In this document: positions 7,353 to 64,000 of the stretch, one piece after another
Layout of the letters: each line of letters begins with the position of its first letter
How positions within the stretch are numbered: the stretch's first letter is position 1
DNA from: Aurantiochytrium sp. KH105
Taxonomy: Eukaryota > Sar > Bigyra > Thraustochytrida > Thraustochytriidae
DNA: 64,000 nucleotides
Direction of reading: 5' to 3'
Assembly (NCBI GenBank): GCA_003116975.1
Contig: BGKB01000242.1
Span: 1 to 64,000, forward strand
Made by a program: the position numbers and the translations under genes
The notes under the pieces: model-generated
What the model saw: the letters and a program-made list of their open reading frames with translations, nothing else
Database searches by the model: none
Told to the model about the DNA's origin: nothing

Positions 7353-7880
7353 TTATGCCGACAGGCGTGCCCGACCCTTGAGCTTCCTGCGGAGGAGCGT
7401 CCGGCGACCATTCTTGTTGACGAGGCGGCTGCGAAAGCCGTGTTTCCGCTTGCGCTTGAGCACACTGGGCTGGTACTGGCGCTTGATCATCTCAAAGATG
7501 AACGCCCGCGCGCCCTCCGCGGTGGCGTCCTCCACGGGCGCCAGCTGCTCCGCGGGCACCGTGTGCAGCAGCGTGGACGTCCACGGCGTCTGGGTCGCCG
7601 TGGCCACCGCCTGCTGCTCGAGCAGCGCGCGGGCGACGAGCGCCAGCGCGGGCGCCACGTCGTGGGCGGCGGCGGCGGCGGCGGGCGTCGCGGCCGGCCG
7701 CAGGGCAGCAGCGGCGGCGGAGCCCGAGAGCGAGCGCGCCGTCGGCGTCGCCACGCGCGCCGTCTGCAGCGCCATCATGCCGCGCGGCGCGGCTCCCGCC
7801 AGCTGCTGCTGCGTCTGCTGCGGCGCAGGGGCCAGCGGCCGCGCGGCCTGGCGCGCGACGCGGGCACCAAGACGAAGCAT
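7353..7880 (-). CDS. Mitochondrial large-subunit ribosomal protein bL34m, 175 aa
   Basis: The last 44 residues match the L34 family closely: [19 protein letters not shown], then [18 protein letters not shown], the universal basic L34 signature. Bacterial L34 is only about 45 residues long; here it carries a long N-terminal extension. I chose ATG 7880 because it begins [16 protein letters not shown], a typical Arg-rich mitochondrial presequence. In-frame ATGs at 7964 and 8036 exist but give a poorer targeting signal. Residues about 15-110 are Ala/Gln/Pro-rich and probably unstructured. The protein sits near the peptidyl-transferase region of the large subunit. A nuclear gene with a presequence marks the organism as a mitochondriate eukaryote. 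Confidence 0.93.
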
Positions 7881-37882: not shown

Positions 37883-38840
37883 GCTGCGCGCGCAGCAACA
37901 ACCACGGCGACGACAACGACGACGAGGGCAAGCCGCCACTGCGCTCGCGCTGCACGCGTCCCGGTCCGTGAGACCTGCTGAGGTTTTTGCGCGCGCCTCT
38001 CGCGTGTCTTTTCCTCTCCCCTCGTTTCACTTTCTTACGAGCCGTGTGCGTGTGTGAGTGTGCGAAAGCTAGGCCCCGCCGTTCGCTTGTTGCTTGCTCG
38101 CCTGCCAGACTTGATGCCTTGCCAGATATCAACTGTCTTATAGAGATCAATCACAAGCCAAATGGCACGCGTGTCGCTTCCCCTTTGTTCCTACCGGTGG
38201 CCGCTAGCTAGCGGTCGATTAGCCGGCCAGGCCAGCCAGCAGGCCATACCAGGCAGTCCAAGTCAGGCGCCAATCACCCATCCTTCCTTTCCCTGGCGAG
38301 CCTGATACCCAGCAACACAACCCACGCGCTCCACGGGTGAAACCCGTAACGGCCATCTTGTGCCCCGCATTCCCCGGTCGCGGGAGACCTTGATCCCGGC
38401 AGAGACGCTCCGCGTCGCAGCCGCAGCCGAGACCAAGCGCAGACCATCCCGAGCCGCGGCGCCCGAGGGCGAGGATACGCGAGGCGGGAGCGGCCACGCC
38501 TCTGCGCGAAGCCTTGGCGGGCTCGGCGCCCAGCCGGATCGCGACAGGCATGTCGGCAGCGGCTCGGCGCTCGCTTGCTGCGCGAAAGCTGAAACGAGAT
38601 AAAGTGCTTGTTATACATTGCAGATGGTGAAGACCATGGACGCGGAAGATGACGAGCTGGCGCCGAAGGGCGAGGCTTCTGGCGCAGCGGGCGCAGCAGA
38701 ACCTCATCGGCGGAGTGGTCGAAGGACGCAAGGCGAAACGCGTGTCGGCGACAGCGGGCACCACGCCGTTGAGACGTAGAGCAAGCACTGCACGCAGCCG
38801 AGGCGAAGGCCGGGAGCGTGCTGGCCCGTGCGAGTCTGTG
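37883..38840. other. Divergent dynein/MDR spacer
   Basis: A 0.96 kb spacer shared by the dynein gene and the MDR oxidoreductase gene. It contains a possible upstream reading frame (ATG 38624 to TAG 38777-38779, 51 codons) overlapping the region before the MDR start. No independent gene supported. Confidence 0.5.
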
Positions 38841-40368: not shown

Positions 40369-43300
40369 ATGGCCCAGAAGACAACAACGAAGATGGCAGA
40401 GGAGTCGTCGCCGCCGCTGCCACCTCGGCAGACGGCGACGAGGACGCGAATGAGGACACGCACGTCGCTGCGCGAGCAAAAGAATGCCCACGAGCAGTCG
40501 ATCCGAAAGACTGATCGAGCCAAAACGCAGGGTATCCGCATCTTCTCATTCCCGACGGTTGGCCTCATCATCGCTGTCCTGGCAGTCATTGCGACGTCTG
40601 CCTCGGGCCTCAGCGTACGGATTCCAGGGCAGGATAACGCATTGCAGACCAATACAAACACGGAGCTCTTGATGACCGACATTGCCATCGAGCGGCACAT
40701 TGAAGACGAGGCAGCACCGTGGGAGCCCCTTGCAAAGGTGCAGTTATCCTCCGAAAATGGTGGGAGCTTTCTTCTACGGTGCCGCGATCACATCATCCCT
40801 ACCACAAACATTTCTACCTTTGCCGCGCTTGCGAAGTGGAATCGCAACATTTCTTTTGCCGGAAAGGTTGACAACATTAACGCAGCGTTGCATTGTCTAT
40901 TTTATCGCTCTGCAAACGACTTTAGCGGTAACGAGACGGTTCACATTGCTGTTGAGCTCGCTGATGCGCAGCACACTGCTCACGTCCCTATTCGAGTAGC
41001 GCCTGCAGACGATCTGTCTCGCCCACACCTCAATCTGGCCATTGCAAGGCTCTCGGCAGGAATCACAGAGGATTCTAGTGACGCCTTTCCTCTGGGAGAG
41101 CGCCTCGGCTCGCGTATTGTCGATCCCCTGCAAGCCAGCTTGGGAATTGAGATTTCGTCCATCGCAAATGCCGTGCTGGAGATGCCAGGCTACGCTCGTA
41201 CTGGTCTCACTGCAGCACAAGCCCAAGCTGCCCTTGATGCATTGACATATTTGCCGCCGGTCAACTTTTTTGGACAGGATGTGGTGTCGATTCGAGTTGT
41301 GAACGAAGATACGAATGCATCAGACGCCAAACATCTCATTGTGGACGTTCGCGCTGAAAATGATGCGCCAACACTCTCCCTTGGCGATGCAATACGGAAC
41401 ATGACGCTTCGGGCTGGCGTCGCAACGCCTTTACGCACTCTACCAGATAACCAGGCCGGTGTGGTGATTGCGGATATTGATGCAACACCGGGCGAGCGTT
41501 TTCGTTGCGGTATTCGCGCTCCTCCGGGGGTTCTGCACATTGCCCGCCATGCGGGAGTCCACGTGTCTACCACAGCAAACGTTATGGGCACTTCAGATGT
41601 AGAGACTATCCTTCAAGGGACCCTTCCTGCACTTCATGCAGCCCTTCGGAACATTGTGCTTGCGCCCTCATCTGACGCAGAGTTAACAATGTGGTTCTGG
41701 GTCATGGATGCATCCGACTTACGTTCTGAGATTCACAAACTCACTCTCCAGGTACAGTCTGCACCATTGCAGGCCCTCTTCGAGCGCCCTGCGCAAGCAC
41801 CAATCACCTTTGACATCTCGCAAGGGACGAGCTTTAATCTTTCCGCCCTTGAGGTCGTTCTTTCGGACAACAGTGATTCGGTTCATGCCGAGCGTGATAT
41901 CACCACAGTAATCTCGCTCGCTCTTACGATTGATCCCGCCGCAGGTTTCATCGATACCATTTCTGGCGAGCAACTTCCTTACTGGGTAGCTCGGCAAGGG
42001 CTTGGGACGGCCCAAATTCATCTCCAGGGATCGCCTGCAGAACTTTCTACTGCATTGACACGCCTTGAGCTCAAGGTGGACGATGCATGGGAAAGCTCGA
42101 CACAAATGAGGGCGGTCACGCTTACCTTGCACGCCTCTGCTACAAGCGAGGACCTAGCGTCCTTCTCCTCTTCCTCCTCCTCTTTGTTGTCATCAGCATC
42201 ATCATCAAGTGTCCTCATCGTTCAGCTTTTTGTGATTCCTCGGCAAACACTGCCCGTGCTCGAATTTGCAGAGTCCTCGGGACAAGATCGCACAGCCCGA
42301 CTTGATGGACCACCCGTGTCTCTTCCATTTCGTGCATCGTTTTCCACATATGCAAGCTCCCCGACCACAGAGGCCCACATTCGCACATTGTCACAAAACA
42401 GCATTTGTGGGTCATCTCAGCTCGCCATTGAACCCAGAGGCTTGCATGTTGAAAGTTTGGGGAATGATCTTTTCCTCCGCGGCGAGGCAGAAAGGGTTTC
42501 AAAGGCTCTTCTTCATCTCGTCTTTGTCCCAAGCACTTCAAAAGAATGCTCGAATGAAATCTTGCCTCAGCAGATTGCTGTCGTGGTTCATCTCGTGCAG
42601 CAACCTTTCGAGTCTTCACGCGTGACAATTCCTGTGCGTGTCAACTCTGCAGACTTTGCGCTAGGATTTGTGCTGGGCTCAACGAGTCCTCTAAAGGTTC
42701 GCACCGCTGATGAGTCTGGAGAGCAGTCGGCGTTACGCTTCACACCTGATGTGCTGCGTCTCGAGAATCTTGTTCCACAGGCAGAGACCCCTTCGATTGG
42801 ATCCCAGGCGTACACGCTCTGGGTTCAAGCACGAATTGGGTCGTTCACTTTGGCAGAACAAGTTCACAGGGACGTTACCGCAATCTTTAGCGACCAAGGC
42901 CGCTCGCTCGTTCTAAAAAGCGTTGACCTGAGTAAGCTCCGCACCACACTCTCTCAGGTAATTTACACGCCATTTCCGGTCACACAAGGTCTTGAGGTCA
43001 TTCTCGTGGAACTCCACGTTGTTCAAAGTGGAAGGACAACGAGCTCACGCGCGTGCGAGGCATTCATTAATATTGAGGTGGGGCGTGGGGATACTACTTT
43101 TGAAATCGGATGGATTCCATCCAACCCGCAAGAGCTGAGTCTTTTGGCGCGCGAGTCTCCCGAGGCCCCAAGAGTCTATGAAGCTAGCCTGCAGGGCATT
43201 GATTTCCGCACGTCGAAATCGCATGCAGACCCTTTGCTTATCGAGATCTCTCCAGCTAGCGAGAGCATCCTTTTGGCGAATTTTCATATCCAGCCAGACG

Positions 43301-46300: not shown

Positions 46301-49300
46301 ATATCATCGCAGCATCCCTGGAGAATGCCGAAAGATGGCTTCACAATGTTTTTGTCGAGGATGAACCGAGTGAGCGCCATGGACCTCGGGCCTCACTCTC
46401 TATCCAAGCTCGCCTTCAGACGGAACATCCAGGTTTATCATCGTCCGCGACATGCATGTTGCCCTCGTTGCGCGCTTCTAATGAAGTGGAGGTCAGCATT
46501 TCGGTAGAGACCGACGTTCTGATAATGTCCGCCGCACAAACGCAAGTCGTTGTGCCCCGCATCACGGTGGAAAGGAGCCTGTTCTCAGCGGCTGCCCATG
46601 GACGGCTGCCAGTCGAGGCACGCGTGTCATCCACAGAAGGACAGGCCTTGCGCATTTCCGTGCATCCATCTGTGACCGTTCGTCTTGGCATTTTTGCGAA
46701 TCAGAGTGATTCGCAAGAGATCCACATTCGGGCCAGCTCAGAGAGCGTTCTGAACGACGCCTTGGCTAACTTGGTACTTTCTAGGGGCGGAGACACCCCC
46801 TGGGACGGAGATGCTACGTTGACACTGCAGATTGACGATCAAGTTTTCGAGAATGTAGTCCACGTTCATGTTGAAGCACCTAATCCTACATTTTGGGAAG
46901 TGTCTGGATCCTACCGTCGAGGTATCCTCCACGGGCCCACGGTCGCGAGGAATGCGCGCATGTCAATGAGTTGGCAGCACGGCGAGCCTTTATCCTTTGA
47001 TGGACTTCGGATTGGATCCGCAATGTCCTCGGGCACAGCTGGCCTGCGCTCCATACGCGTGGAGGCAACGAATGGTCACGGGCTTTGGCTCGATGACGCT
47101 CTCTCGCAATTGACGACAAGTGTAATCACAAACCCTGCAGACCTCCAACGAACGACGCTCGTCATCCTCGAGCCTCAAGGGGGTGCCGATACGGGGCTTC
47201 GCGAATCCCAGCTGCTCGAGACGGTGTGCGACGCAAAACCTGAAATTCATTCCATTTCCATTGTTGATAGCGCAACGTCGGATCCTATTTCGGGGTCTTT
47301 TCGCGTGTCCTGGCGTGGGATAACAAGCAACGATATCGCGCATAACGCATCGTCAAGCGAGATACAGGCTGAACTCGAAGCTATTGTTGACGTTGGGGCG
47401 CTCACTGTGACAAGAGAAGTGAATAGCAACTCCTCGGCGTCCGAGGCATACACTTGGCTCGTCACCTTTTCGGAGCTGTCAAGTGAGCCAACGGGAGTTG
47501 TCTTTGGGATCGAAGATGCGATGTTCAGTAGCGCGTCAACCGCTGTCTTTTCGCAGCTCGAACGAGCTGGCAATGTGATTGGCGGCGCCTTTCGACTCGG
47601 TTTCTTCGGACGCTGGACATCACTTCTGTCGTGGAACGTGGACCCAAGCGAACTTGAACACTCCTTGATCGGTCTCGCACCTACGCTTTTGGAGTCTGGC
47701 GTTCACGTAACGCTAGAGTCCGAGGGAAGCTGGAGCACCCGATCGTATCGCGTCACGTTTGATATGATGGGTCAGTTCCCGCTCATTGAGCCAGACACGA
47801 CTATGCTAACGGGAGACGGAGCGTCAATGACGGTGACGAGAGACACGGCTGGCGTGAATGCTTCGTGGGCCATCTTCCGCTTCCATCATCAAGGACTATC
47901 CTCACGCCTCGTAAGCTCGCGAAGTGCGCTCACTCACGTATCGAGAGCCTTGCAAGACGTTGGTCTCGTTCTTGAACCTCAAGTGAGTGAAAATCTTTGG
48001 GTCGGCCGCCATCCCGACGGCGACTCTGGTGATGGCTTTCTTTGGGTTATCTCCGCAACAATCGCTTCGGGTCTGCGTGTGGAAGCAGTCGAAACAACGG
48101 GCACCCTCTGGGCGTCTTCTACAACCCGGGCGATGACGTTGCAGGCTCGATCGGATACATCCATGGACAATATACTCAGCGCACTCCGATTGTACCCCAA
48201 TGTGGCTCGTGTTCCCGGGCGCTCGCAACTCTCCTTCACAGTGTTGAAAGCTGTCAATACCTTGCTGCAATCAGAGACCGATAGTCTTCGCATTGATTTT
48301 CTATCCTCGTCCACCACCGGAGATCAAGCTGCAAGCTCGGCGGGGCAATGTACCCTTGACGTTGCCGCTTCAACGGTTGCCGTAGATGGTTTCACGCGAA
48401 CGCATGGTCAACTTTTTCAGGCCGCAGTACCGCGTATCGATTGTTTGGGCCCGGTGCAACAACTCGAGCTTCGTATGGTAGCGTACCAGGGTTTGCTTTC
48501 TCTTTCCGCAAAGGCACCAGTGGTCGCGGTGAAAGGTGCAAGGGGCCTCGTTCAGGAGAAAAGGTGGTCTTCCGACGAGACAGCTGGTATTGGCGTGTCA
48601 GAGATTATTGTTCGTGGTTCACAGGATGCCATTCAGGAAGCTATGAATAGTGCGGCATATGTTTTTGGCTCTTGGAAAGAATTGCATCTTGATCAAGCGC
48701 AGGCACAAATTACTTCGTTGCGTATTTCTCGACATTTGCGTCACCCAACTCCGTCCGTTTTTGTGGTTGAAACCAGGTGCAACGTGGGCGTAATTTCCGG
48801 AAGCTTCGTCTTGGCCATTGAAATCGCTCAAGTTGATTCCGAAGGTCGAGTTACTTCCCATACAACGAATGTGACTGCCTCAATCGACGTTCAAGCTTCT
48901 TTTGAAGACATGGAAAACCGTCTTCTTGCTGTTAGCACTTGGCCTGAGGGCGAGGCCATTCAAGTAAAGCGGTCGTCCGAGACTAACGCGCAACTGACTT
49001 ACACGTGGGAGGTCACTGTCGTACACTCCATCGCTTCACAAGGCCACGTTCTAAGTATTGCCGTGGACTCTTCATCGCTCTCTTCGTCGAGCGTGCAGGC
49101 AAGCACCTCGGTCGCTGCGGAGACCATCACGTCTGCCTTTTCGGCAGACCTCAGCTCGGTCACAATCAGCTGCTTGAACGGGGATGCAGTCTTTACTGCT
49201 GACGCATCGGCGGAAGAAGTGCAGGCAGCTTTTGCGTCTCCGATCATTGTCAGCAGGGGAAGCGATGGGTCACTTTTGCTCGGATCATCGCTCATTGGCG

Positions 49301-55300: not shown

Positions 55301-58300
55301 TCTGTTCAGAGGCCCAAGACAAACGATGCTTTCAAGATTCGCACTGTCTCGGATCGTGCCTGCTTCCTGCAACTGGGAAAATCGGGGAATGCTTGTCCTC
55401 TGGTAATCCATGCGCAACAAATGATGACTGCTTGTCTTCGGGCGCGTGTGACGCATCGAATTGCGTAGCAAACGCGGACGGTGCCTTTACATGGTTTATC
55501 GAGTTCCACAATGCTCCGAGCTCCCTCCCACTGCTCGAGATTGAGGAAAGCCATCTCGTCGCTGTGGACACCCCTGATCTATACATTGGACTTTTGCAGG
55601 CTCGAAAGGCGTCCCCAGTCCCAGAAGTGGCAGCAAACCAAGTGTGCGGTAGTCTCGCACTCGATGGCATCACCTTTACGCACGCGGCTGACACCGACAT
55701 TACTCTTCCCCAGATATTGTCTTTCGCATCGGGCCCGGACCTCGAAGCTGGCCTCGTTCTTTATCTCATTGATCTTGGCCGTGCTGCAAGTGGTCTTCCG
55801 TTTCCCATTGACGTGAATGGCTCCCTGCTCGAGGGCCAAGCCGTGCACGTGGATTCGGCGCTCAAGTTCCCGTGGTCGCGTGTAAAGAGCGAGCCTGAAT
55901 TGCAGTTAGACGTTGAAACAACGGGTGTAAGCTGGGTCGAGTACATGGCCCGGAACGAGATTCGGTTTCAGGGCACTGTGCCAGAGCTCAATGACGTCTT
56001 GCAGCAGTCCGTGAAAGGCCTTCGTGTAAGCGGGCATCGCGGCTGGTACGGGCGTGCACTAATCAATTTTGAAGCCACAGCTCTGATGTCAGATGACGAA
56101 TTGGGTTTGCATGAGAGTGTCCTCGTCGACGTGGCGCCCAGAATCCCTGAAGTCCGACTGCAACTGGCGTCGTCAGTTCGTTCCCTGCGCGAAGACCTGG
56201 ACATCTATGTCTTTGGATCAAAACCTGGGCAAATTGAGGCGATCGTTTTTGGCGATGAGGACATCCCGCTTCGGTTGTCGGTGCAAGTCTCGGTAGGCTT
56301 TGTTTGGATTCTTCCGGAATATCGACTTCTCCACAGAAGTATTGCAGAGGCAAAAGAGCGTCCCGCTTGGTCTCAACCAGAATCTTCGCTCGTCTTCAAG
56401 GGCACCCTTACGGAAGTGCGCAGCGCTCTGGCCCACCTTCAGTACCGCAGCGCTACCTTGGGCGTTACTGAGCTGAAGCTGGATATTTCGGCCGATCTCA
56501 CGCAAGGTCTCGGGCACAACTCGTCCTTGGCAGAGATTCCAGCTATTTCGAGGACAGTGTTTCTGAACGTTCGGCCTCTCGATCAACCCTTGCTCTTTGT
56601 CAATGGCACTCTGCATCGTGATATAAGCGTCTCCGAGTCAGAAAGTGTCAACTTGCTTTCTGAGGTCCGGCTCGTCTCCGAAGAACCTTTGCGCGAGACG
56701 GTGGAGGCCACGTTCGAAGTGCAGAGAGGTAAATTGACTCTGGCGTTGCGCGACGAATGGAATGGTCAGGACGAAGTTGCTGTCAGTGAGGACGGCAAAA
56801 TGCTGCGTGTACGCTCCACTCGCGAGGGTCTCAATCAACAGATTTTCCCGTACGTCTTGTATCGTGCGGCACGCACGCATTACACGGGCGAAGATATGGG
56901 TATTCTGACGGTGACGAGCGCTGCGACGCAACGTCTGGCGAGCCTGACAGTACGGATCAGCATCACTGAAACAGACGACCCACTACAAATCGTCTCTCAA
57001 AGCCCAACGGAGCCGCTCCGCATCCTCGAAGATCAGCCGCTTCCGCTCGAGGGGCTTTTCCATATCACCGATGTTGATCAGGTCCGGCAAGGTGAGCTTC
57101 GTGACGAGAACATTACGTTGGAGCTGCGGACATTCGCCCGACACGTCGACATGCAGCAGGCCATTCGCACGACTGCAGACGGAGGCGTGCTCAACGGGCA
57201 CTTTAAGGTTTCGATTGACTTGACTCCGTGGGGCGGCACAGTCGTAGAGTCAGAGCGCATCGCCGCGAACGCAGTGCCATCGATTACGAGCGAGCGTACA
57301 ACGCACGCTACAGGTACGGGTCGAGGCGAGTCGGTCGAGGCGAAAATCAACGCATTGCTCGCTCAAGCTCAGAACGGATCAATTCTAACAGAGCAAATCA
57401 CAGTCTCCGTATCTCAGACGGATGAAGTGTGCTCCTACGAATGCAAATCCGTTCTTGCAGCGTACGATTCAAGCTCCTTGCTCTGCTCGAAAAGTGCACA
57501 TTGCGATCTTTGCGTTGGCCACTGCCAGGGTGGCACCGTTCACCGCTGTTCTTCGGACGCGGACTGTGATGAAGGCACTGGATCATGTTTGTTCAGTAGA
57601 GGCGAGTGCCTCTCTGATGGCTCTCCATGCTCATCGCACGTTTCTTGTCAAGAAGCAGGAGAATGCATCGCTTCGGGGTGCGCGGCCAACACCGTTGGCG
57701 GGAACACTTGGACTATCACCTTTTCGAAGGCACCATGGGACTTGCCCATGCTCTTCATTTCCGAGGAGAGATTCTTTGGCGCAACGAATGCTCGCGTCGC
57801 ATGCGATGTCATCATCAATCGGACTCCCGCGCGTCCTGTGCAGGAATCCAATCGGTTGGGAGGCTCATTCCGTATTAATGACAAAGTACTGTCGTACAAC
57901 GCAAGCGCAAAAGAGGTACAAACTGTCTTTGAAGAGCTCGCGGACCTTGCGTTGGTACGTAATGCGACACTACACGGGCCGCACGCCGCACCTGTGCCAG
58001 TAGGTAGGTCCTTTGTCGAAATTGTTGAGCGGGAAGGTCCATCGTTGGAAGATGGCTACGTTTGGACTATTCGCATGACAGCGGCGGCGCAAGCTTTTGC
58101 ATCAAGCCTGATTGTCGACAGTGCTCTATTAGAAGGTCTCGAACCTGAAGCTTCGCTGCGTTTCGTGGGAGAGAACGTAACACCAATAACGGGAGCACAC
58201 GTTCACATTGAGAGCAAGCACGGTGTCGTCGGTGTGCGCGGCACCGGGCGCCAAAACGCCGTGGAGAATTTCAGCGTTCAACTCGCTGATTCCTCCTTGC

Positions 58301-61300
58301 TTGAGGAATATCTGGACAGCCTGGTCTTTCTTCCTGATCAGAATTGGAACTCAGAGGCAGGTCGAGACTTTGCCTCTGTTCGAGTTGAAGTCCTGAAAGA
58401 TGACGATTTGGAAGGAAGAGCACGTGCTGCAACGCAGCTCGTCCATGTTGCTGCTGTGAATGATGGCCCAGTTCTACATGTTCCAGGGCAGGTGCTCGAC
58501 GAGAATGATCTGACTGCAGACCAAGTGAGTGGTCGTCTGCTTTCGGTGAACGATTTCTCTGTTCGCGAGGGCTCAACAGAGCGAATTGCGGGTCTATCTA
58601 TTCGTGATGTCGATGCTGGTGCAAAAGCAATTTATATCGAACTTTTAGCGACGAACGGAACGCTTTCATTGGCAGCAGAAGTGGCTTTGCAAGACTTTCA
58701 GCAAATGAACGCAAGCTCGATGTCCTGGACAGGTTCTGTAAGCGCTATCAACTACGCCTTCCAGCAGCTTTTGTTTACGAGCGAGAATATGTTCGGAAAC
58801 GGTGGAAATGCATCTATTCACATTATCGCAACGGATGGTGGCCATATTGGGGATGATGGCAGTATTGGAAGCGACAGTGTCACTGTGCCGCTTCTTGTTG
58901 TCGCCAACGACGATGCCCCCGAACTCGAACTTCCTGTGAATAGGCATGCATGGTACTGCAGAGAGGACGACAGTCTTGCGCTTCCTGGTCTTCTTATTCG
59001 CTACGATAACTACCCAGAGCATGAAAGTGTGCAACTCGAAGCCTACGCTAGCCACGGAGTTGTCCAAGTGCCAGTAGTTTTCGCAAACGTTTCGATGAGC
59101 TCACTTCCGGATCAGGGTCTTTTTCTCGAAGGTACCGTCGCTGCTGTCAACGGAGCTCTCGCAGAGGCAATTTACACCCCGAACGCGGATTACTCGTCGA
59201 CACAGACGCAGCAACCAGATGAGATTACCTTTACGTTGCGAAGCGTGCGCGGAGACATAGTCTATAACTCAGCCTCTGTATACGTGGAAGCTGTCAACGA
59301 CGAGCCATTCTTGTCTCTTCCAGGCGCCACGGTCGAGTACGATGGCGCTGGTCGTTACGTAACGACAGCTACACCGACTCTGACAACCGCAGAGGATCAT
59401 TCTCTGATGATGCCAGCCATGACTGTTATAGACGCTGACGGGGGCTTTGAGGTGATCCATCTGACCTTTTCATGCCAATATGGCTCGCTGCGCTTGGCTC
59501 ACACGGCCGCCGAGTTGAGTATTGAAGTTTCAGCCGAGTCCTCAACACTATGGGTGAGTGGACAGCTTGGACGAGTGAACAAAGCATTGGGCGAAGCGCA
59601 AGATGCTGGCGTCGTCTACACGCCAACACGTGACTGGTCGGGAATCGATGTGGTGATCATATCTGTGCAGGATGCCGCCGGTAGCACCGATATGGTGACG
59701 TTGACAATTGTGGTCGAGGCGGTCAATGACGCTCCCGTGTGGCAGCTCCCAGATCCAGCCACCTTGCGTGTCGACGAGGACGGCGCTCTTGCGCTGTTAA
59801 CAGTGCGTGTGCTCGACGTGGATGTAGATGCCGCGGATCCGTTCCTCGTTCGTATCGAGCCGGTTCACGGTATGGTATCTGTGCTTAACGAGGCAAAGTC
59901 GCGGTCAGTTGTCCTAAACTCCACGCTGTCCCTTGTAAATCAAGCACTCTCGTCGCTTTTGTTCTATCCGGCATCGCATGCCCACGCGTTGGATGACGAG
60001 GCTGAAGCAGAGGCTATTCATTTCATCGCGGACGACTTTGGTAGCGTGGGTAGCGGCGGGCCGCGTACGAAGGAGAGCGTTCTGCCGATTGTCAACATCA
60101 TTCCGTGGACAGACCCCCCGCGAATTGAGGTCCCCGGTGCAGTCTATGCAAACGAGACAACCTGTCAAAAGAGCACGCGCAGGTCCTGGCCGCGACGTGT
60201 GGAGGACGTATCACTCTTTGACATTTGCGGGGCGATCATTGACGTAGCGCCCATCGAGGCTTTAGAAGACGGGGACGTGCGCATCACGGGTATTCATGTG
60301 CAGGACAGCGATCTGGACGTTGCTTTGACTTCGCGCAGGCTTCGTGTGGAGCTTACCGTCTCGAATGGCCGTCTCCATGTGTCACCTCGCGGCGCCGCAA
60401 ATTTCGTCACGGGAAGTGATGGAAGACTAGTGGAGTTCTTTGGGTCCCCGAACGAGTGCAACCTGATTCTAGATTCAATCGTGTATCGGCCAGACCTGCA
60501 TTGGTATGGCCTGGATTACCTTCGCATCGTGGCAGAAGACTCCACCGAGATGAACAGCGGTGTAATGGGTGTCGCCTCGCTTCGTGACGAGCAGATGATT
60601 CCACTCCACATTCTGCCGGTGCAGGATGTACCCCAGTTCACAGGCGAGCTCACGCAAGCTTACAGTGGCCCAGCCATGCTGACAACGAGCGAGGATCAAC
60701 CGTTGTTCCTGGCCGGTCCGCATCGGGAGCTGAGTCTTGTGCATGCGGATGGAGACAAGGTGGAGGTAGCCTTTATCGGCATTGCACGCCATGGAACCAT
60801 GTCGCTGGATCCAGATGATTTCGTGGAGGTAAAGTATCTGGAAAACCTGACGCAAGGCGTTGGCGCGGCAGCAAAAGGTCAGGTCGAGGTACTCGCCTTT
60901 ACAGCGAGTGTGAGTACCGTTCGGGAGGCTATCAGGCACATCATTTACGTCCCGGAGGAGAACTGGTCAGGCGTTGAAGATATTACAATGATCAGTGCAA
61001 ATCTGGAAGACCTGACAACCGACCAGGTTCGCTTAGGGGACGATTTCCTTGGCATCCTCTCTTCACGCGTTGCCGAGGCCACGGGTAGCCGGGGCATCGA
61101 CGTTGTGGACGATCGGTACTCCTCAGTGGTGATTCACATCACAGTTCGTGCTACAAACGACGCGCCGAGCGTTGGTCTTCGGTCTGACGCGCACAGCGGT
61201 CATTGGATTTGTGAAGAGGACGCACAAGTCAATCTCGAGGGCATTATTGTCGACGATGTTGACGGAGACGCCGTACAAGTGACGTTGTGGGCAGAGCACG

Positions 61301-64000
61301 GCAAGCCTGACATTTCTGATCTAGATGTGACTTCCCGCAAGCTCTTTATCGCGGTCGACCGCGACGACTCGAGTCTCACCCTCTACGGACCTGTTGAAGA
61401 CGTTAACGTTCTCTTTGAGGAAGACCTTATTTCTTACAGCCCATCGTTGAACTGGTTTGGCCTCGACATAATCGAAGTGGTCATCGAAGATCAGGATGGC
61501 GCATCCGCAAGCATGACGGGGAGTGTCCTCGTCTCTGCAGTGAACGATGCCCCAGAAATTCGTTCAATGACACGTACTGGGGCCAATAGTGTCTTTACAG
61601 TGGCGGAGGGCGGTCGTCTTCACCTGTCCGGCCCGTCACGGCTCTTGGACGCTGACGCGGAGAGCGAAATCGTTGAGGAGCGTTTGGAACAACCCGCCGC
61701 AGGCATTTGGCGTTCACTCGTGGTTCGCCCGGGTCGCGTAACAGACGATGAGCCTTCCTGGCGGTACAGTCTTGCAAGCAATGCAAGCGAACCTGAGTCT
61801 CTGACGGCTCTGGACGCCGATACATTCGTCTTTAGCGCAGAGGATGGCACTCATGGAAGAGAACTGTGGCGCTCGGATGGACGCGCAGATGCAGATTTTG
61901 CCTCCACAATGCTGATCAAAGACATTCGGCCCGGCGCGCAAAGCGCAAACATTGACAATCTTCATCTGCACGATGATGGTCTCGTCTACTTTGCTGCTGA
62001 CGGCAAAGACTGGACATGGATGCTGGAGACGGACACCTGCGGTGGTTTCCTCGAAGCGGTGCCAGGCATTTGGCTTGCTGTCTCGAAGGAAACCACCTTT
62101 GATCGTTTTGGGAGCTACGATTGCCCTTCTGGCTATCACTGGGCATCAACGGCAGAATTAGCAGCTGTCGTCGGTCCGGCGACCGCGCGTGCAGAGGCGC
62201 GCAGCGGTCAGATGCACAGCTACTACGCATCTCTCTGCGGTTGGAGTTTTGACCAATGGGAAGGCGCCACGCGTCATCGATTCATGCTCGCAGATTCGTA
62301 CGAGACATCTGTCTTCCTCGACGCGAGACAGGAGGCCGGATCCCCTGGCCAGCTTGCGCCGGAGGTTCTTGCGGGCGGGGTGCTCGATGAAACCGTTTTC
62401 GCGGGAACAATTTGTATGGCCGATGCAGCTGACGGCACGCCATGCTCACGATCGCTAGGATGCTTCAAGGACGCAGGCCGCGAGCTTTGGGCGACAGACG
62501 GAACCGCAGAAGGAACGAAACGGGTCGTCGACGTCCTTCCTGGCGGTGACGGCTCGCATCCAAGCGATCTCGTCTCGTTTGACGGAGACCTCTTCTTTGC
62601 GGCCTGGACAGAGCTCTATGGTCGGGAGTTGTGGCGTTCTGACGGCACGCCACAAGGTACGCGCATGGTCCAGGACCTGTGGGCAGGAACCGGGTCTTCG
62701 GACCCTCAACTTCTAACCGTTGTCGGATCGACATTGTTTTTCACGGCCGAGGATGAATGGCACGGCACAGAGCTCTGGGTCTCGGACGGAGACCCAGCTT
62801 TTACTGGGGCTCGACCGTCTGTGGTGAGAACGGGGAGCGCGGGCACGGGAACGTATATGGTGCTGGATATACGCACAGGTGATCAGGTCGGGAGCGAGCC
62901 TGCAGACCTCGTTCGTCTCGTGGACAACTTTGTCGCCTTTGCAGCAGGCGATGGAATTCATGGACGCCAGATCTGGGTGTCTGACGGTTCGGAACTTGGT
63001 ACAGGGTACATTACGGACATTCGCAGCGATCGCAGCGAGCTCGGTTGCGACCCACAGGATCTTGTCGTCTACAACCAGCAATTGTACTTTACGGCTGTCG
63101 ATGGCGCGCACGGTCGCGAGCTTTGGCGCGTGGGAGGAACTGACGAATCTTTTACAGCCACAAGACCAGATGGAACGACTTTTGCGGTGGGCTCTGGATC
63201 TTCTCCTCTTGGCGCCACCATGGTTGCAGATCTTTTGCCTGGCAGCCAAGGCTCGATGCCCACGCACTTGCACGTTTTTTCGCCTTCGGAAGCCCTCGAT
63301 CCTGCGTTGCGGGGCGTGGACTTGCTCGTTTTCAACGCGATGGACGCGCTCTGGGTGCTCAATAGCGCCACATCGAGCGCTGTGCCACAGCGCGCCTTTG
63401 AAACGACTGCAGCGGACTTGCGCTTCACAGACACTGGCTTTGTAAATCTGCGAGGAGCATTGTTCTTTGGTGCGCGACCGCCGTACGATACACTTTATCA
63501 GCGCACAGGGGCCCGCCAAGTGTCCCGGAAGCAACCATTCTTCCTCGTCGACGTCGACGCCGGCAGCGACGAGCTCTTCTCCTTGAAGATCGAAACGGAG
63601 CTTGGCAGAATCGTCTTTCAGGACGGGACAGAGGCCGCCGCGGGCGTTTCCGGGACGCTTGAGGAGCTGAACGTACTCTTACAAAGCGTTTACTTTGAGG
63701 CAATCGATGGCACGAACGGGGCGGGCTTCATCATTGCAACGCTGGTGGATTCTAGCGGGGCATCTACCGTCGAAAGCTTTGACGTGCTCGTCACGCCCGT
63801 CAACAGCGTCCCTGTTTTGATACTCTCGCGCACAAGCGTGCGCGTGTCCCGTAGCGGGCCGAAGGTGGTTCCCTTGCACATCGACGTGAGTGTTAGTGAC
63901 GAGATCGAGGTTCCAACTGCAATTCTCGAAGTTGCTATCGCGAGCGACATTGGCAAGCTCCGGATCGAACCACTCGAAAACGTTGCCATTGTTTCCAAGG
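40369..64000 (+). CDS. Giant type II membrane/surface protein with CSPG-like and ELWxxDGT repeats (partial, >7,870 aa)
   Basis: ATG 40369 (A at -3, G at +4). The frame stays open to the window edge, 7,877 codons without an intron; the C terminus is missing. Residues 1-55 are strongly basic; 59-78 (FSFPTVGLIIAVLAVIATSA) form a signal anchor, so the bulk should be extracellular. Most of the protein consists of diverged beta repeats of about 100-120 residues. Their hallmarks are an ALxxLxYxP strand, a GxDxIxIxVxD strand and VNDAP/VNDGP linkers, as in CSPG4/FRAS1 and cadherin-like tandem repeats (clearest from about residue 6000 to 7100). A second type, GxFxL..NAxAxxVxxxLExL..YxWxVTF, occurs near codons 2305-2465, 4630-4800 and 5830-5905. 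Cys-rich modules start near 4947 and 5684. ELWxxDGT repeats span about 7160-7600. Many N-x-S/T sites are present, and an RGD lies near 6294. Likely a cell-surface or matrix adhesin (inference). Confidence 0.93.
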   Translation, partial: MAQKTTTKMAEESSPPLPPRQTATRTRMRTRTSLREQKNAHEQSIRKTDRAKTQGIRIFSFPTVGLIIAVLAVIATSASGLSVRIPGQDNALQTNTNTELLMTDIAIERHIEDEAAPWEPLAKVQLSSENGGSFLLRCRDHIIPTTNISTFAALAKWNRNISFAGKVDNINAALHCLFYRSANDFSGNETVHIAVELADAQHTAHVPIRVAPADDLSRPHLNLAIARLSAGITEDSSDAFPLGERLGSRIVDPLQASLGIEISSIANAVLEMPGYARTGLTAAQAQAALDALTYLPPVNFFGQDVVSIRVVNEDTNASDAKHLIVDVRAENDAPTLSLGDAIRNMTLRAGVATPLRTLPDNQAGVVIADIDATPGERFRCGIRAPPGVLHIARHAGVHVSTTANVMGTSDVETILQGTLPALHAALRNIVLAPSSDAELTMWFWVMDASDLRSEIHKLTLQVQSAPLQALFERPAQAPITFDISQGTSFNLSALEVVLSDNSDSVHAERDITTVISLALTIDPAAGFIDTISGEQLPYWVARQGLGTAQIHLQGSPAELSTALTRLELKVDDAWESSTQMRAVTLTLHASATSEDLASFSSSSSSLLSSASSSSVLIVQLFVIPRQTLPVLEFAESSGQDRTARLDGPPVSLPFRASFSTYASSPTTEAHIRTLSQNSICGSSQLAIEPRGLHVESLGNDLFLRGEAERVSKALLHLVFVPSTSKECSNEILPQQIAVVVHLVQQPFESSRVTIPVRVNSADFALGFVLGSTSPLKVRTADESGEQSALRFTPDVLRLENLVPQAETPSIGSQAYTLWVQARIGSFTLAEQVHRDVTAIFSDQGRSLVLKSVDLSKLRTTLSQVIYTPFPVTQGLEVILVELHVVQSGRTTSSRACEAFINIEVGRGDTTFEIGWIPSNPQELSLLARESPEAPRVYEASLQGIDFRTSKSHADPLLIEISPASESILLANFHIQPDAQLGLSLLSPSIVHGPLDEFLLAVRRGLLRTRMTVAAESTAAQSQLLGILLTVGDLSGSELSLRNASIEDVKSLIENNRLAEPYSLSFTTQGAPQSDALLREVELLVGGSAYPFPNLLANPVLANDEHVAQGLELPSFKIQSWSASEVLSLQLQTAHGLLRVGGDQSAQEVESFETVASLNAWLAQGLRYFPTRGIAGVDHVSCAIHGKDRRLLYSTQIAIFVGDGPRGLSPEQSPLADSATLEVARDTLVVVDAALNDAQPIILDLQTHIAQGTPRALYELEVRPTAGMVIFAETQGLAMSAGGAILQGQRDKLNAALASATFAPDHGLDKMVCNLEILLRRPANPTFVVSRTILLSVQRQTQIARDSQLRANNAGVATALGVLRRNPDQDSTMLRVEEGQHFEISGLGWTYTFEQDIAQLPVIVHVSTSQGRLLLRNPLDALKHQILSQADDAIIMRQVAQDIPHLLHQLEVQLPEHWNSMSAGDACLVEIALLQSIDALDEVTPLIVPVHVQPPLQRPSITGILALEAGAAGLSLSPLFFEGWTGFASAKAVDLELGSVDGGQILVPDGLGLANLQSANAVHEAFVQITATLEPASGELRFRVKIYEHATDNILCERSFWIARQERVKSARIASEVQVIHANQNQSLRLGSLAVNFANFDQEACELLAIAHHGTLTIVPSQAATSQLRCSHNGTAQVHCLGTPESLASVVASGLHYRSKASFNGIDTLALHIKLKSADPEDYLTEVSLPVIVHATASQIELSIEAISASTILSALEISASNNLDFSPAISVPILLQGLNARSHDAHIRLRSDGGLRGSWQITHPAFQTLQVKTDGDDRVLELRGALRKLQKALEHHIQFTLMTPLDTRTTAQSTELIVEAWIDSDDEALQGASAPHAADRRVLQLPLTSENGQLQLPQSGCFVQFESGCQTLRFLRRASLSRTGLRLGWHDNWFSPPTRTSAVISVAASGAVRLTVSKDAAIDANVTWSLSSTGQKLDIIAASLENAERWLHNVFVEDEPSERHGPRASLSIQARLQTEHPGLSSSATCMLPSLRASNEVEVSISVETDVLIMSAAQTQVVVPRITVERSLFSAAAHGRLPVEARVSSTEGQALRISVHPSVTVRLGIFANQSDSQEIHIRASSESVLNDALANLVLSRGGDTPWDGDATLTLQIDDQVFENVVHVHVEAPNPTFWEVSGSYRRGILHGPTVARNARMSMSWQHGEPLSFDGLRIGSAMSSGTAGLRSIRVEATNGHGLWLDDALSQLTTSVITNPADLQRTTLVILEPQGGADTGLRESQLLETVCDAKPEIHSISIVDSATSDPISGSFRVSWRGITSNDIAHNASSSEIQAELEAIVDVGALTVTREVNSNSSASEAYTWLVTFSELSSEPTGVVFGIEDAMFSSASTAVFSQLERAGNVIGGAFRLGFFGRWTSLLSWNVDPSELEHSLIGLAPTLLESGVHVTLESEGSWSTRSYRVTFDMMGQFPLIEPDTTMLTGDGASMTVTRDTAGVNASWAIFRFHHQGLSSRLVSSRSALTHVSRALQDVGLVLEPQVSENLWVGRHPDGDSGDGFLWVISATIASGLRVEAVETTGTLWASSTTRAMTLQARSDTSMDNILSALRLYPNVARVPGRSQLSFTVLKAVNTLLQSETDSLRIDFLSSSTTGDQAASSAGQCTLDVAASTVAVDGFTRTHGQLFQAAVPRIDCLGPVQQLELRMVAYQGLLSLSAKAPVVAVKGARGLVQEKRWSSDETAGIGVSEIIVRGSQDAIQEAMNSAAYVFGSWKELHLDQAQAQITSLRISRHLRHPTPSVFVVETRCNVGVISGSFVLAIEIAQVDSEGRVTSHTTNVTASIDVQASFEDMENRLLAVSTWPEGEAIQVKRSSETNAQLTYTWEVTVVHSIASQGHVLSIAVDSSSLSSSSVQASTSVAAETITSAFSADLSSVTISCLNGDAVFTADASAEEVQAAFASPIIVSRGSDGSLLLGSSLIGGALPPMNCESNDPHVWIWESIAQASEPTFTDAVVLEIRNPLTNETRASNMISVRGEATVEQVLRRTMHLARPSKVLHCIAGDEAVQVSGFFLAIATLEQSPSLNLPLRCAVRAERGTAYFRLPEGNTQDVVFDRDLESLQNLIHSGIKYTPPTTGSASDSIQLSCHIEWKGMMRSSIVESDETILLSSAEIIVHDERRTSARISGPESISLQRGELWGFDGRLQLETDEENSNVSVDVRLTTQIGAFVGLSSDSDSRIAQDVHTETYADESSVRIVGLSSDVAAVLSSMSYFASADSDESANVIEVMMDGRVQAQIAITVASQYLPLLVAECSQANGCLVEIEEDSTVLIAQLAGVHISPMALSHCSSESVSFQVASDSGRLFAGHVSPDLAFRGGLDPLEWSTRAELNALETALSRLLYSSSHKWYGHDIVSIDYTCGDFRTRIEIHVHVQPVDDRLTIEAATSGPLYAALDVPLLVHHYRIVDPDELAGSSQDCVPLILTLMTQMGHLHVEELFGAALETGNVFLPGYYGNRVLAFRACASKLNLLLQSIQYTRMRKHKANTAIADTLSIYVRRAHEAEEAHVSAHTQIELERQPGDDLPALVRKTNADQDGDRVDAPVPLHLNKQVRLSDLISLEGGDFSNASPGSSALLTITTQYGSIRSETLLDELETAHVVFRADQRLVIQVESDSINLQNVLSLVWYASLPPADALRWHAQLLSTDRKNDVISVDLVATSYAHDSEETSEFLPHVDVPLLISIPEELILPEIELFQNITSHALRLRDARPIWLSDQADEDTQSVVIADAELVVLEISIAPVGQLELVRDACLFVQCQVEEEGQKVHISGRLRHVLNAVGHDRDALRARAPAQRSGNEVVTVEATLSRQGFPTQRRSSLQILLSESSAPCILRDIMLEAHVPLTRAQVVGPVPLDFFLRDRVAGRTSTAAISLTVQVVAGSGVLEPPSRNDPSIDVQRLATDWFIVRGLVEDVDRVLQETQVLSNRPHEFGADRAFAFAEVYVSVVAKACGTTKLEARKVFVFPEETNKVAGVLEAHIFSSQGQEHLEAKASMMITDKVDVRVASGATDTEDLELVISCESGRFSIEGLCSAAVNIQGLRSNRILLSLPAGHPIQLAHCVSKIKYTAGTDSDTISAFVNGKDESLFAVSVEIVNAEPVWSLSGLGAESNAATLTAASLSSGSIDLSAAFGHFALTRDRGEPTSALMSVTFAAARNSARVLWNNQSEIHGVVATETIDGGVLIQGSQPQVIQALATHAPLFYEPPQSSWCGRERIRVNVNGVSVRALQLEILCEGPESRPTWSDQVSLAIQGFEDRKLDFGVASGLQVVDTASQLHGCNNEAWLVRVQLSTIDGLSTQFTMPKSVPGVRAELGESADFVGCVSDVNAALRALVIAPETDTFGNASLQCSVSRLASTDEDRVELRIEFEAVHDGPRIRHILPNHTLQVMEGETLVLGGFYIQDADAASSSQDAYEVTLRVPTGTIYAGSPAEERNIRITRSDSGDVILRGLLSELNLELKRVLYTASSRFTGTFNLEASVQDKHEHRSVSTISVTVAGVGPGISLRRLQADVLTSAPTLVPSSSVSLAGVVALEDDLRAPEFAQLTVTADPAGAQPEVQQIVVRRPVFSDVHLVRLAATQNEAAAPATFKLSYDGETTGDIDRAALDSVSKELGSSLGASMESMLAALGTVDQVEVSRTKLGAYGLEWAVTFFRTSPGPALVLESENDPSNAIDVTISRTGGVDELELEGNFTLQLGSRVSTSLSFDTPAVFIQRALEALPTVHLVHVDEQALLTSEDAEVFNAWTVTFVRPAGDIPLLKALVLNSTVPEVRVEISEITKGQGVAAVQRVITSARHQNMVLALRSTAVMGPVEGSFKLALDLRSLGGSRVVSNVVDHAAVATIAEERVHSARGSRPGDSIESVVNAMLQKASQGLEAHFESFDSTAMHVSVSRNDQICEHDCKLFSEEYPAGPLCTFDSACDVCVGLCSEAQDKRCFQDSHCLGSCLLPATGKIGECLSSGNPCATNDDCLSSGACDASNCVANADGAFTWFIEFHNAPSSLPLLEIEESHLVAVDTPDLYIGLLQARKASPVPEVAANQVCGSLALDGITFTHAADTDITLPQILSFASGPDLEAGLVLYLIDLGRAASGLPFPIDVNGSLLEGQAVHVDSALKFPWSRVKSEPELQLDVETTGVSWVEYMARNEIRFQGTVPELNDVLQQSVKGLRVSGHRGWYGRALINFEATALMSDDELGLHESVLVDVAPRIPEVRLQLASSVRSLREDLDIYVFGSKPGQIEAIVFGDEDIPLRLSVQVSVGFVWILPEYRLLHRSIAEAKERPAWSQPESSLVFKGTLTEVRSALAHLQYRSATLGVTELKLDISADLTQGLGHNSSLAEIPAISRTVFLNVRPLDQPLLFVNGTLHRDISVSESESVNLLSEVRLVSEEPLRETVEATFEVQRGKLTLALRDEWNGQDEVAVSEDGKMLRVRSTREGLNQQIFPYVLYRAARTHYTGEDMGILTVTSAATQRLASLTVRISITETDDPLQIVSQSPTEPLRILEDQPLPLEGLFHITDVDQVRQGELRDENITLELRTFARHVDMQQAIRTTADGGVLNGHFKVSIDLTPWGGTVVESERIAANAVPSITSERTTHATGTGRGESVEAKINALLAQAQNGSILTEQITVSVSQTDEVCSYECKSVLAAYDSSSLLCSKSAHCDLCVGHCQGGTVHRCSSDADCDEGTGSCLFSRGECLSDGSPCSSHVSCQEAGECIASGCAANTVGGNTWTITFSKAPWDLPMLFISEERFFGATNARVACDVIINRTPARPVQESNRLGGSFRINDKVLSYNASAKEVQTVFEELADLALVRNATLHGPHAAPVPVGRSFVEIVEREGPSLEDGYVWTIRMTAAAQAFASSLIVDSALLEGLEPEASLRFVGENVTPITGAHVHIESKHGVVGVRGTGRQNAVENFSVQLADSSLLEEYLDSLVFLPDQNWNSEAGRDFASVRVEVLKDDDLEGRARAATQLVHVAAVNDGPVLHVPGQVLDENDLTADQVSGRLLSVNDFSVREGSTERIAGLSIRDVDAGAKAIYIELLATNGTLSLAAEVALQDFQQMNASSMSWTGSVSAINYAFQQLLFTSENMFGNGGNASIHIIATDGGHIGDDGSIGSDSVTVPLLVVANDDAPELELPVNRHAWYCREDDSLALPGLLIRYDNYPEHESVQLEAYASHGVVQVPVVFANVSMSSLPDQGLFLEGTVAAVNGALAEAIYTPNADYSSTQTQQPDEITFTLRSVRGDIVYNSASVYVEAVNDEPFLSLPGATVEYDGAGRYVTTATPTLTTAEDHSLMMPAMTVIDADGGFEVIHLTFSCQYGSLRLAHTAAELSIEVSAESSTLWVSGQLGRVNKALGEAQDAGVVYTPTRDWSGIDVVIISVQDAAGSTDMVTLTIVVEAVNDAPVWQLPDPATLRVDEDGALALLTVRVLDVDVDAADPFLVRIEPVHGMVSVLNEAKSRSVVLNSTLSLVNQALSSLLFYPASHAHALDDEAEAEAIHFIADDFGSVGSGGPRTKESVLPIVNIIPWTDPPRIEVPGAVYANETTCQKSTRRSWPRRVEDVSLFDICGAIIDVAPIEALEDGDVRITGIHVQDSDLDVALTSRRLRVELTVSNGRLHVSPRGAANFVTGSDGRLVEFFGSPNECNLILDSIVYRPDLHWYGLDYLRIVAEDSTEMNSGVMGVASLRDEQMIPLHILPVQDVPQFTGELTQAYSGPAMLTTSEDQPLFLAGPHRELSLVHADGDKVEVAFIGIARHGTMSLDPDDFVEVKYLENLTQGVGAAAKGQVEVLAFTASVSTVREAIRHIIYVPEENWSGVEDITMISANLEDLTTDQVRLGDDFLGILSSRVAEATGSRGIDVVDDRYSSVVIHITVRATNDAPSVGLRSDAHSGHWICEEDAQVNLEGIIVDDVDGDAVQVTLWAEHGKPDISDLDVTSRKLFIAVDRDDSSLTLYGPVEDVNVLFEEDLISYSPSLNWFGLDIIEVVIEDQDGASASMTGSVLVSAVNDAPEIRSMTRTGANSVFTVAEGGRLHLSGPSRLLDADAESEIVEERLEQPAAGIWRSLVVRPGRVTDDEPSWRYSLASNASEPESLTALDADTFVFSAEDGTHGRELWRSDGRADADFASTMLIKDIRPGAQSANIDNLHLHDDGLVYFAADGKDWTWMLETDTCGGFLEAVPGIWLAVSKETTFDRFGSYDCPSGYHWASTAELAAVVGPATARAEARSGQMHSYYASLCGWSFDQWEGATRHRFMLADSYETSVFLDARQEAGSPGQLAPEVLAGGVLDETVFAGTICMADAADGTPCSRSLGCFKDAGRELWATDGTAEGTKRVVDVLPGGDGSHPSDLVSFDGDLFFAAWTELYGRELWRSDGTPQGTRMVQDLWAGTGSSDPQLLTVVGSTLFFTAEDEWHGTELWVSDGDPAFTGARPSVVRTGSAGTGTYMVLDIRTGDQVGSEPADLVRLVDNFVAFAAGDGIHGRQIWVSDGSELGTGYITDIRSDRSELGCDPQDLVVYNQQLYFTAVDGAHGRELWRVGGTDESFTATRPDGTTFAVGSGSSPLGATMVADLLPGSQGSMPTHLHVFSPSEALDPALRGVDLLVFNAMDALWVLNSATSSAVPQRAFETTAADLRFTDTGFVNLRGALFFGARPPYDTLYQRTGARQVSRKQPFFLVDVDAGSDELFSLKIETELGRIVFQDGTEAAAGVSGTLEELNVLLQSVYFEAIDGTNGAGFIIATLVDSSGASTVESFDVLVTPVNSVPVLILSRTSVRVSRSGPKVVPLHIDVSVSDEIEVPTAILEVAIASDIGKLRIEPLENVAIVSK
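42151..42222 (+). other. Serine-rich insert in the giant protein
   Basis: An Ser-dominated stretch (SFSSSSSSLLSS, then SASSSS) using TCC/TCA/TCG codons. It interrupts otherwise normal beta-repeat sequence and is probably a flexible linker born from codon slippage. Confidence 0.8.
55210..55480 (+). other. Cys-rich module 1 of the giant protein
   Basis: Roughly residues 4947-5038: CEHDC, CTFDSACDVCVGLC, RCFQDSHC, then ECLSSGNPCATNDDC and CDASNC, 16 or more cysteines in about 90 residues, followed by an AFTWFIEF strand. The spacing suggests a small disulfide-rich fold; no exact family recognised. Confidence 0.85.
57430..57690 (+). other. Cys-rich module 2 of the giant protein
   Basis: Residues about 5687-5774 repeat module 1: CSYEC, CSKSAHCDLCVGHC, RCSSDADC, then ECLSDGSPCSSHVSC and CIASGCAAN, followed by NTWTITFSKAPW. 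Both modules are preceded by a related G-F-K-strand and SIE/SVE-helix segment, so the duplicated unit is about 170 residues long. Confidence 0.85.
61855..63140 (+). other. ELWxxDGT repeat region in the giant protein
   Basis: Repeats occur as ELWRSDG (near codon 7164), ELWATDGT (7371), ELWRSDGT (7419), ELWVSDGD (7467), QIWVSDGS (7532) and ELWRVGGT (7582). Each is preceded by a phenylalanine-rich LFFAA/VAFAA-like strand and followed by GTxxVxDxxPG. This is the ELWxxDGT repeat, a propeller-like unit known mostly from bacterial secreted proteins. The first two repeats are split by an unrelated insert. Confidence 0.85.
62020..62320 (+). other. Cys/Trp/Tyr-rich insert domain within the ELWxxDGT region
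   Basis: Roughly residues 7218-7318. It holds SYDCPSGYHWASTAE, a region ending YYASLCGWSFDQWEG, and RHRFMLADSYET. The aromatic/Cys pattern differs from the flanking propeller repeats. I do not know a named family. It looks like a small inserted recognition domain. Confidence 0.6.

Follow-up and report, generated by a model that had tools for sequence, protein, structure and literature searches.

The last 23.6 kb of the window (the whole stretch of DNA analysed here, 64,000 nucleotides at the start of contig C242) are filled by one open frame, which begins with an ATG at 40369 on the forward strand and is still open at the window's end at 64000. When this 423-kb contig was extended by its next 30 kb, the stop was reached at 64195–64197, giving a frame of 7,942 codons and a product of 7,942 aa (855 kDa, pI 4.8). 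The first-pass annotation, which had read this frame as encoding more than 7,870 residues and had proposed extending the contig to find its stop, is thus borne out, and the frame is also kept in a second copy of the gene. The adjoining genes encode a dynein heavy chain (24920–37939, minus strand; 4,339 aa), with matches to 14 Pfam families at E ≤ 1e-10, mostly parts of the dynein motor, and a convergent MCM2 (1,040 aa). Both neighbours are likewise single frames, so that a long uninterrupted frame is nothing unusual in this genome. The features of the giant frame are as follows, with the evidence in brackets.

40369..64000, continuing to C242:64197, plus strand: giant open frame (open frame, second copy, coding tests)
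40369..40536, plus strand: basic N-terminal tail, aa 1–56 (sequence, copy comparison)
40540..40608, plus strand: hydrophobic segment, aa 58–80, signal peptide or signal anchor (hydropathy)
40642..46884, plus strand: repeat block 1, aa 92–2172, 13 Ig-like (tandem-95/cadherin-like) repeats (own model)
47284..49083, plus strand: three VTF repeats within aa 2306–2905 (VTF model)
49537..54018, plus strand: repeat block 2, aa 3057–4550, 11 Ig-like repeats (own model)
54280..54801, plus strand: two VTF repeats, aa 4638–4811 (VTF model)
54895..55689, plus strand: duplication copy 1, aa 4843–5107, with Cys module 1 (55213–55464, 14 Cys)
55915..56979, plus strand: three Ig-like repeats, aa 5183–5537 (own model)
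57130..57903, plus strand: duplication copy 2, aa 5588–5845, with Cys module 2 (57430–57681, 14 Cys)
58195..61548, plus strand: repeat block 3, aa 5943–7060, 8 Ig-like repeats (own model)
61741..63543, plus strand: ELWxxDGT domain, aa 7125–7725, propeller-like, apparently inserted in an Ig-like repeat (profile, model)
62008..62463, plus strand: insert in the ELWxxDGT domain, aa 7214–7365, about 150 residues, six Cys (sequence)
63544..64000, plus strand: last two Ig-like matches, aa 7726–7812 and 7839–7942, the end lying beyond the window (own model)

Over the stretch occupied by the frame, the five alternative frames contain 199–333 stops apiece and no open run longer than 321 aa, and the longest run in the three forward frames of 50 base shuffles was 323 aa. 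Codon usage in the giant frame correlates with that of the dynein (0.78) and MCM2 (0.71) neighbours; the correlation is weaker for its reverse strand (0.38) and absent for its +1 frame (0.07).

A Second Copy and Selection along the Chain

By searching the genome assembly (76 Mb, 367 contigs), in which matches are mostly returned as contig pairs, we identified a second copy of the giant gene on contig C48 (353795–329979, minus strand; 7,938 codons). The two copies, which are either alleles or homeologues, are 96.3% identical in nucleotide sequence over aligned codons, and their differences fall at codon positions 1, 2, and 3 in 204, 156, and 515 cases, respectively. Synonymous sites differ by 8.3% and non-synonymous sites by 2.2%, giving a dN/dS of 0.25, and the ratio stays below 0.5 in each of the 16 blocks into which the gene was divided (15 with 500 codons each, the final one with 438). 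The protein alignment contains four gap columns, at 598–600 and 1228. Of the gap columns in the 300-base flanks (20 in one, 4 in the other), eight lie at the alignment edge; the remaining flank gaps, of 10, 2, 2, 1, and 1 bases, all have lengths not divisible by three.

The extreme size of the frame invites the suspicion that it is no single gene but a set of genes, a misassembly, or a decayed region with the look of one frame, and the first-pass annotation had itself named an assembly collapse as what would undo its reading. This proved not to be so: since the divergent C48 copy retains the frame over its full length at a dN/dS of 0.25, the frame is a single constrained one and a collapse artefact is excluded. 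Moreover, both copies keep the frame in spite of their synonymous divergence, they differ in length by four codons in 23.8 kb while their short flanks carry internal gaps out of phase with codons, and purifying selection is seen in every block. A reading as several genes, misassembly, or decay is therefore largely refuted, and we give it next to no weight; the second copy and the selection acting on it also speak against a pseudogene.

Constraint is uneven along the chain. The dN/dS ratio declines from 0.33 in aa 81–2170 to 0.26 in the middle and 0.13 from about aa 5941 to the end, which makes the far (C-terminal) end the most conserved part of the protein. The replacement and synonymous counts of the C-terminal part differ from those of the N-terminal repeats (Fisher p 1.5e-5) and of the middle (p 6e-4). 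For the ELWxxDGT domain the ratio is 0.12 (10 replacement and 26 synonymous changes). Unlike the remainder of the gene, the basic tail (aa 1–56) shows five amino-acid changes and 0 synonymous changes between copies, and is thus not visibly constrained; this would mean that the tail can vary freely or that translation starts slightly inward, at Met9 or Met28.

One Family of Ig-Like Repeats

Public profiles were searched against aa 1–4000 and aa 3668–7877, that is, the whole protein except its last 65 residues, which lie beyond the window. In aa 3668–7877, tand_rpt_95 (101.9 bits, cut-off 90), Big_9 (56.1 bits, cut-off 23.6), and Cadherin_4 (33.7 bits, cut-off 25.1) were found above their cut-offs, and Cadherin_5 below its own (18.7 vs. 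26.5 bits). In aa 1–4000, tand_rpt_95 reached 27.6 bits, under its cut-off of 90. As the public models miss most of the N-terminal half, we built a repeat model from the protein itself, grown from nine seed segments. This model lists 40 matches, three of which (aa 2744, 2898, and 5550) have E > 0.05 and were discarded; the remaining 37 copies of an Ig-like repeat of about 120 residues, at E < 0.05, extend from aa 92 to aa 7942 and cover 46.6% of the residues, part of the rest of the chain being assigned to no module. The match at aa 7726–7812 is the second half of an interrupted repeat.

When each copy was left out of the model and then searched at its own place, 35 of the 37 could still be detected at E < 0.01 and all of them at E < 1, the lowest score being 7.7 bits. 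The best score among 12 controls (the dynein, ten local shuffles, and the reversed protein) was 1.7 bits; matches under E 0.05 were obtained with the dynein, at that score, and with one shuffle of the ten (0.9 bits), and none with the reversed protein. The model also finds three repeats (67.6, 45.0, and 29.6 bits) in an independent giant frame, L023. As expected of a tandem-95-type protein, a unit of about 100–120 residues is repeated in tandem, in 37 copies. What the first-pass annotation described as "thousands of residues of beta repeats" is thus present, with the correction that these repeats belong largely to one family, which from sequence comparison we class as Ig-like, of the tandem-95/Big_9/cadherin-like kind. 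A DxD motif occurs in 20 of the 37 repeats, so that cadherin-like calcium sites are not general.

An AlphaFold2 model of one repeat (aa 6326–6462; 59344–59754), computed from an alignment of 37 rows of which the last ends at the window's edge, predicts a beta-rich fold that includes a single helix (pLDDT 92.4). In a Foldseek search with this model, part of human B4GALNT1 came first (E 2.3e-6, rmsd 5.3, TM 0.64 by query). Behind it came cohesins as well as a fibrillar-adhesin domain, and Ig domains ranked lower; matches in BFVD were scattered, and several of them are named Ig-like. We also observed that the repeat profile, run against PDB sequences, finds B4GALNT1 (residues 119–211 of the chain, E 1.6e-4), beyond which that search returned weak matches alone. 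We know of no link between this kind of tandem repeat and B4GALNT1.

VTF Repeats and Duplicated Cysteine Modules

Five copies of a second repeat, for which we coin the name VTF, lie at aa 2306–2372, 2404–2482, 2809–2905, 4638–4719, and 4739–4811. All five are already recovered by a first version of the model built from two loci elsewhere in the genome alone (L029 and L037), and the controls of the VTF model gave one match (E 0.044, 3.2 bits). The VTF repeat is common to frames on C18 (16,357 aa, with fn3), C17 (12,336 aa, with TIG), and C15 (1,633 aa).

The duplicated Cys modules of the first-pass annotation were found as described, with 14 cysteines in each. They lie within an internal duplication (aa 4843–5107 and 5588–5845) whose BLAST segments are 36–43% identical. 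Behind each module lies a stretch that resembles the tail half of a VTF repeat; because these stretches score −0.9 and 4.7 bits, nesting of the modules in VTF repeats is a reading of the pattern and not a result.

A Bacterial-Type ELWxxDGT Domain

The bacterial-type ELWxxDGT repeats noted at first pass are confirmed by TIGR04534, which matches eight stretches of the protein with 251.3 bits (cut-off 65). Genome-wide, this profile gives 12 matches, confined to the giant gene and its second copy. On its N-terminal side lies an apparent first part of an Ig-like repeat, up to about aa 7095, and on its C-terminal side, from aa 7726, a stretch matching the latter portion of the repeat model; judged from this layout, it apparently sits inserted within a repeat. 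It is itself interrupted by the six-Cys insert, for which we found no Pfam match at E ≤ 5 and no further copy in the genome.

The region was modelled using 34 bacterial rows out of 44 eligible. The model has a mean pLDDT of 61.7, with 325 of 756 residues below 50; it is mostly confident at about aa 7138–7213 and 7368–7707, where short strands succeed one another like propeller blades, and fails on the six-Cys insert and the flanking half-repeats. The best Foldseek match is the PLL5 lectin, with an E-value of 9.2e-7 but TM-scores of 0.25 (query) and 0.45 (target). PLL/PHL lectins and sortilin make up the top matches, all with low TM-scores, and since prolyl oligopeptidases, LGI1, LRP6, and megalin also figure in the top 50, the matches indicate propellers generally rather than lectins. 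Judged from this model, the bacterial-type domain is probably ring-shaped (propeller-like).

With the entire ELWxxDGT region as query, a scan of bacterial genomes yielded no relative; we would attribute this to search patterns that stem for the most part from the insert and further atypical stretches. When the scan was made with an alignment of the ELWxxDGT repeats, 322 of 397 stretches were relatives; in the 80 loci kept of these 322, which belong to many phyla, identity to the giant protein's repeats reaches up to 56% in the best segment. A scan of IMG/VR with about aa 5845–7877 found nothing. Lateral transfer of the domain is only a possibility. Our literature search found nothing on ELWxxDGT, and TIGR04534 is not named in the papers found.

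Termini and Membrane Topology

The peak hydropathy of the whole protein is at aa 58–76, with a mean of 2.37 over 19 residues (2.44 in the second copy). In the C242 copy, a mean above 1.6 is reached elsewhere in three 19-residue windows, at aa 605 (1.70), 3778 (1.80), and 6614 (1.65), which would be beta strands, given their placement among or between beta repeats. The hydropathy scan of the 7,942-aa protein found no hydrophobic C-terminus. We also considered an anchor encoded by a hidden, spliced C-terminal exon; with 301 bases between the giant-frame stop and the end of the convergent MCM2 frame, there is little room for such an exon, which is therefore unlikely. With the strongest hydrophobic segment at the N-terminus and a C-terminal anchor unlikely, the chain would be either secreted or N-terminally anchored with more than 7,850 residues outside, as far as sequence can indicate. 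The basic tail and signal anchor of the first-pass annotation hence stand as a tail and a hydrophobic segment, and the anchor may instead be a cleaved signal peptide.

A freely secreted structural component of a wall, scale, or gel matrix would also fit several observations. In such a component the propeller-like domain would be a node for assembly or cross-linking and not an adhesin head. A plausible signal-peptidase site can be read just after the hydrophobic segment, the protein has no other strong membrane anchor, and giant frames on C18 (in L127) and C128 of the same genome also begin with signal-peptide-like stretches. On the other hand, the segment is preceded by a long basic tail, which is unusual in a simple signal peptide, and free secretion as a structural component leaves the greatest conservation of the C-terminal end unexplained by itself. 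We hold this alternative, which overlaps in part with the explanation preferred below, to be a real possibility, though a tentative one.

Comparison with Known Systems

The whole architecture of the giant protein was matched to nothing. The first-pass annotation, which could not match it to a described protein, was right in this respect; it is not so for the parts, as two bacterial proteins combine tandem-95 repeats with ELWxxDGT. These are L093 (Planctomycetota) and L048 (Acidimicrobiia), with 475 and 472 bits for ELWxxDGT and 468 and 378 bits for tandem-95, respectively, all over the cut-offs. They join the two elements as the giant protein does, though not at its length. Run against the 80 bacterial ELWxxDGT ORFs, our repeat model gave 3 matches at E < 0.01 (L093, L048, and L055), the best with 16.1 bits; the NCBIfam scan covered L093 and L048, and on these two the model gives at most 13.3 bits. 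As the model reaches no more than 16.1 bits there, the repeats of the giant protein are distant from bacterial tandem-95.

More generally, tandem-95/Big_9/Cadherin_4 proteins, which are large, mostly bacterial, and adhesin-like, have a repeat like that of the C-terminal part of the giant protein; unlike them, the latter is eukaryotic, has 7,942 aa, and contains VTF repeats and Cys modules in addition. Similarly, its eight ELWxxDGT stretches place it with TIGR04534 proteins, from which it is set apart by the insert of about 150 residues and by the position of the domain within one of the tandem repeats of a giant rod. Animal CSPG/FRAS1-FREM proteins and cadherins also form long extracellular rods of cadherin-like Ig-fold repeats. 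Nevertheless, no Pfam CSPG or classical cadherin model matched aa 1–4000 or aa 3668–7877 at E ≤ 1, and the sole match to an animal rod or cadherin was that of aa 3668–7877 to Neural-cadherin among PDB sequences (E 0.036). We rejected assignment to the classical cadherins, there being no match to a classical model, no hydrophobic C-terminus, and a DxD motif in little more than half of the repeats.

A Candidate Adhesion or Matrix Rod

Taken together, our data are best explained by one gene that encodes a giant extracellular rod, likely serving in long-reach adhesion or in building a cell coat or matrix, a reading to which we assign a probability of about 0.7. The Ig-like repeats, the Cys modules, the ELWxxDGT domain, and the signal or anchor segment at the N-terminus all support the surface or secreted location proposed at first pass. 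In this rod, the N-terminal hydrophobic segment would route the chain to the secretory pathway and then be either cleaved or retained to hold it in the membrane. The approximately 37 Ig-like repeats, whose fold is predicted for one of them, would string into a long fibre, measuring some 0.15–0.2 micrometre if each repeat spans about 4 nm, and the disulphide-rich modules, to judge from their cysteine pattern, may form internal nodes. The propeller-like ELWxxDGT domain, inside one repeat near the far end, would be the most likely binding head, perhaps for glycans; we infer that the strongest constraint, found in the C-terminal part, fits such a binding end.

The adjoining dynein heavy chain gene raises the idea that the protein belongs to the flagellar hairs (mastigonemes) or flagellar coat of zoospores and not to the adhesion apparatus of settled cells. 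Gene neighbourhood is weak evidence in eukaryotes, however, and the other neighbour is MCM2; we consider this improbable. Returning to the adhesion or coat rod, the ectoplasmic net would be one plausible place for it to act. A more specific scenario, in which an ELWxxDGT propeller of bacterial type that binds glycans was acquired by a thraustochytrid and placed in a tandem repeat of its own rod, yielding an adhesin of about 0.2 micrometre that is one of several single-frame giants (up to 16,357 aa) building the ectoplasmic net or attaching it to surfaces, is speculative and rather unlikely to hold in full.

To our knowledge, the proteins of the ectoplasmic net are largely unknown. Our literature search found no paper on huge proteins in labyrinthulomycetes. 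A survey of huge proteins lists Big_9, Cadherin_5, and Cadherin_4 among the domains of the extracellular ones, to which Planctomycetota contribute most (PMC11573180). A 2025 study of the settlement proteome of Aurantiochytrium limacinum gives a short list of candidates, including a microneme-like adhesin, and the words "cadherin", "giant", and "beta-propeller" are absent from its main text (PMC12221091). The gene described here adds a eukaryotic huge extracellular protein of Big_9/cadherin-like make, selected along its length and with a nested head of bacterial type, that shares its genome with larger companion giants. Should the host prove to be a thraustochytrid, these giant proteins can be put to the test as candidates for a part in adhesion and in the ectoplasmic net.

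Other Giant Frames and a PfaA-Like Synthase

More giant single frames, each in two copies, were observed in the same genome: C18/C89 (16,357/16,284 aa), C17/C36 (12,336/12,341 aa), C53/C179 (10,224/10,212 aa), and C128/C134 (4,432/4,427 aa), all measured from stop to stop. Sampled stretches contain fn3 (C18), TIG (C17 and C53), and Ig-like tandem repeats (C53), and the start of the C128 frame is C-type-lectin-like by eye. The TIG and fn3 giants (C17/C36 and C18/C89), whose samples include TIG in L029 and fn3 in L037, have the VTF repeat in common with the giant protein; unlike it, they show no Ig-like tandem repeat above 2.3 bits in L029, L030, L032, and L037. In the C128/C134 frame, tand_rpt_95 scores 28.2 and 27.8 bits, under its cut-off, and a search of 3,632 aa of C128 with our repeat model gave no significant match.

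The genome also encodes a PfaA-like synthase, which matches its family over positions 6–1035 with 930 bits, short of the cut-off of 1,010. Because the family also matches 11 of 14 control genomes (0 of them over the cut-off), a match alone is not specific. The PfaA-like pieces lie on separate contigs (C72:311448–314912, C61:32–2791, and C290:39390–42377), and the piece starting at base 32 of C61, inside the carrier-protein part, perhaps marks an assembly break at a repeat. The host is likely a thraustochytrid or a relative of one: in match strength and eukaryotic setting, the enzyme resembles the PUFA synthase of thraustochytrids.
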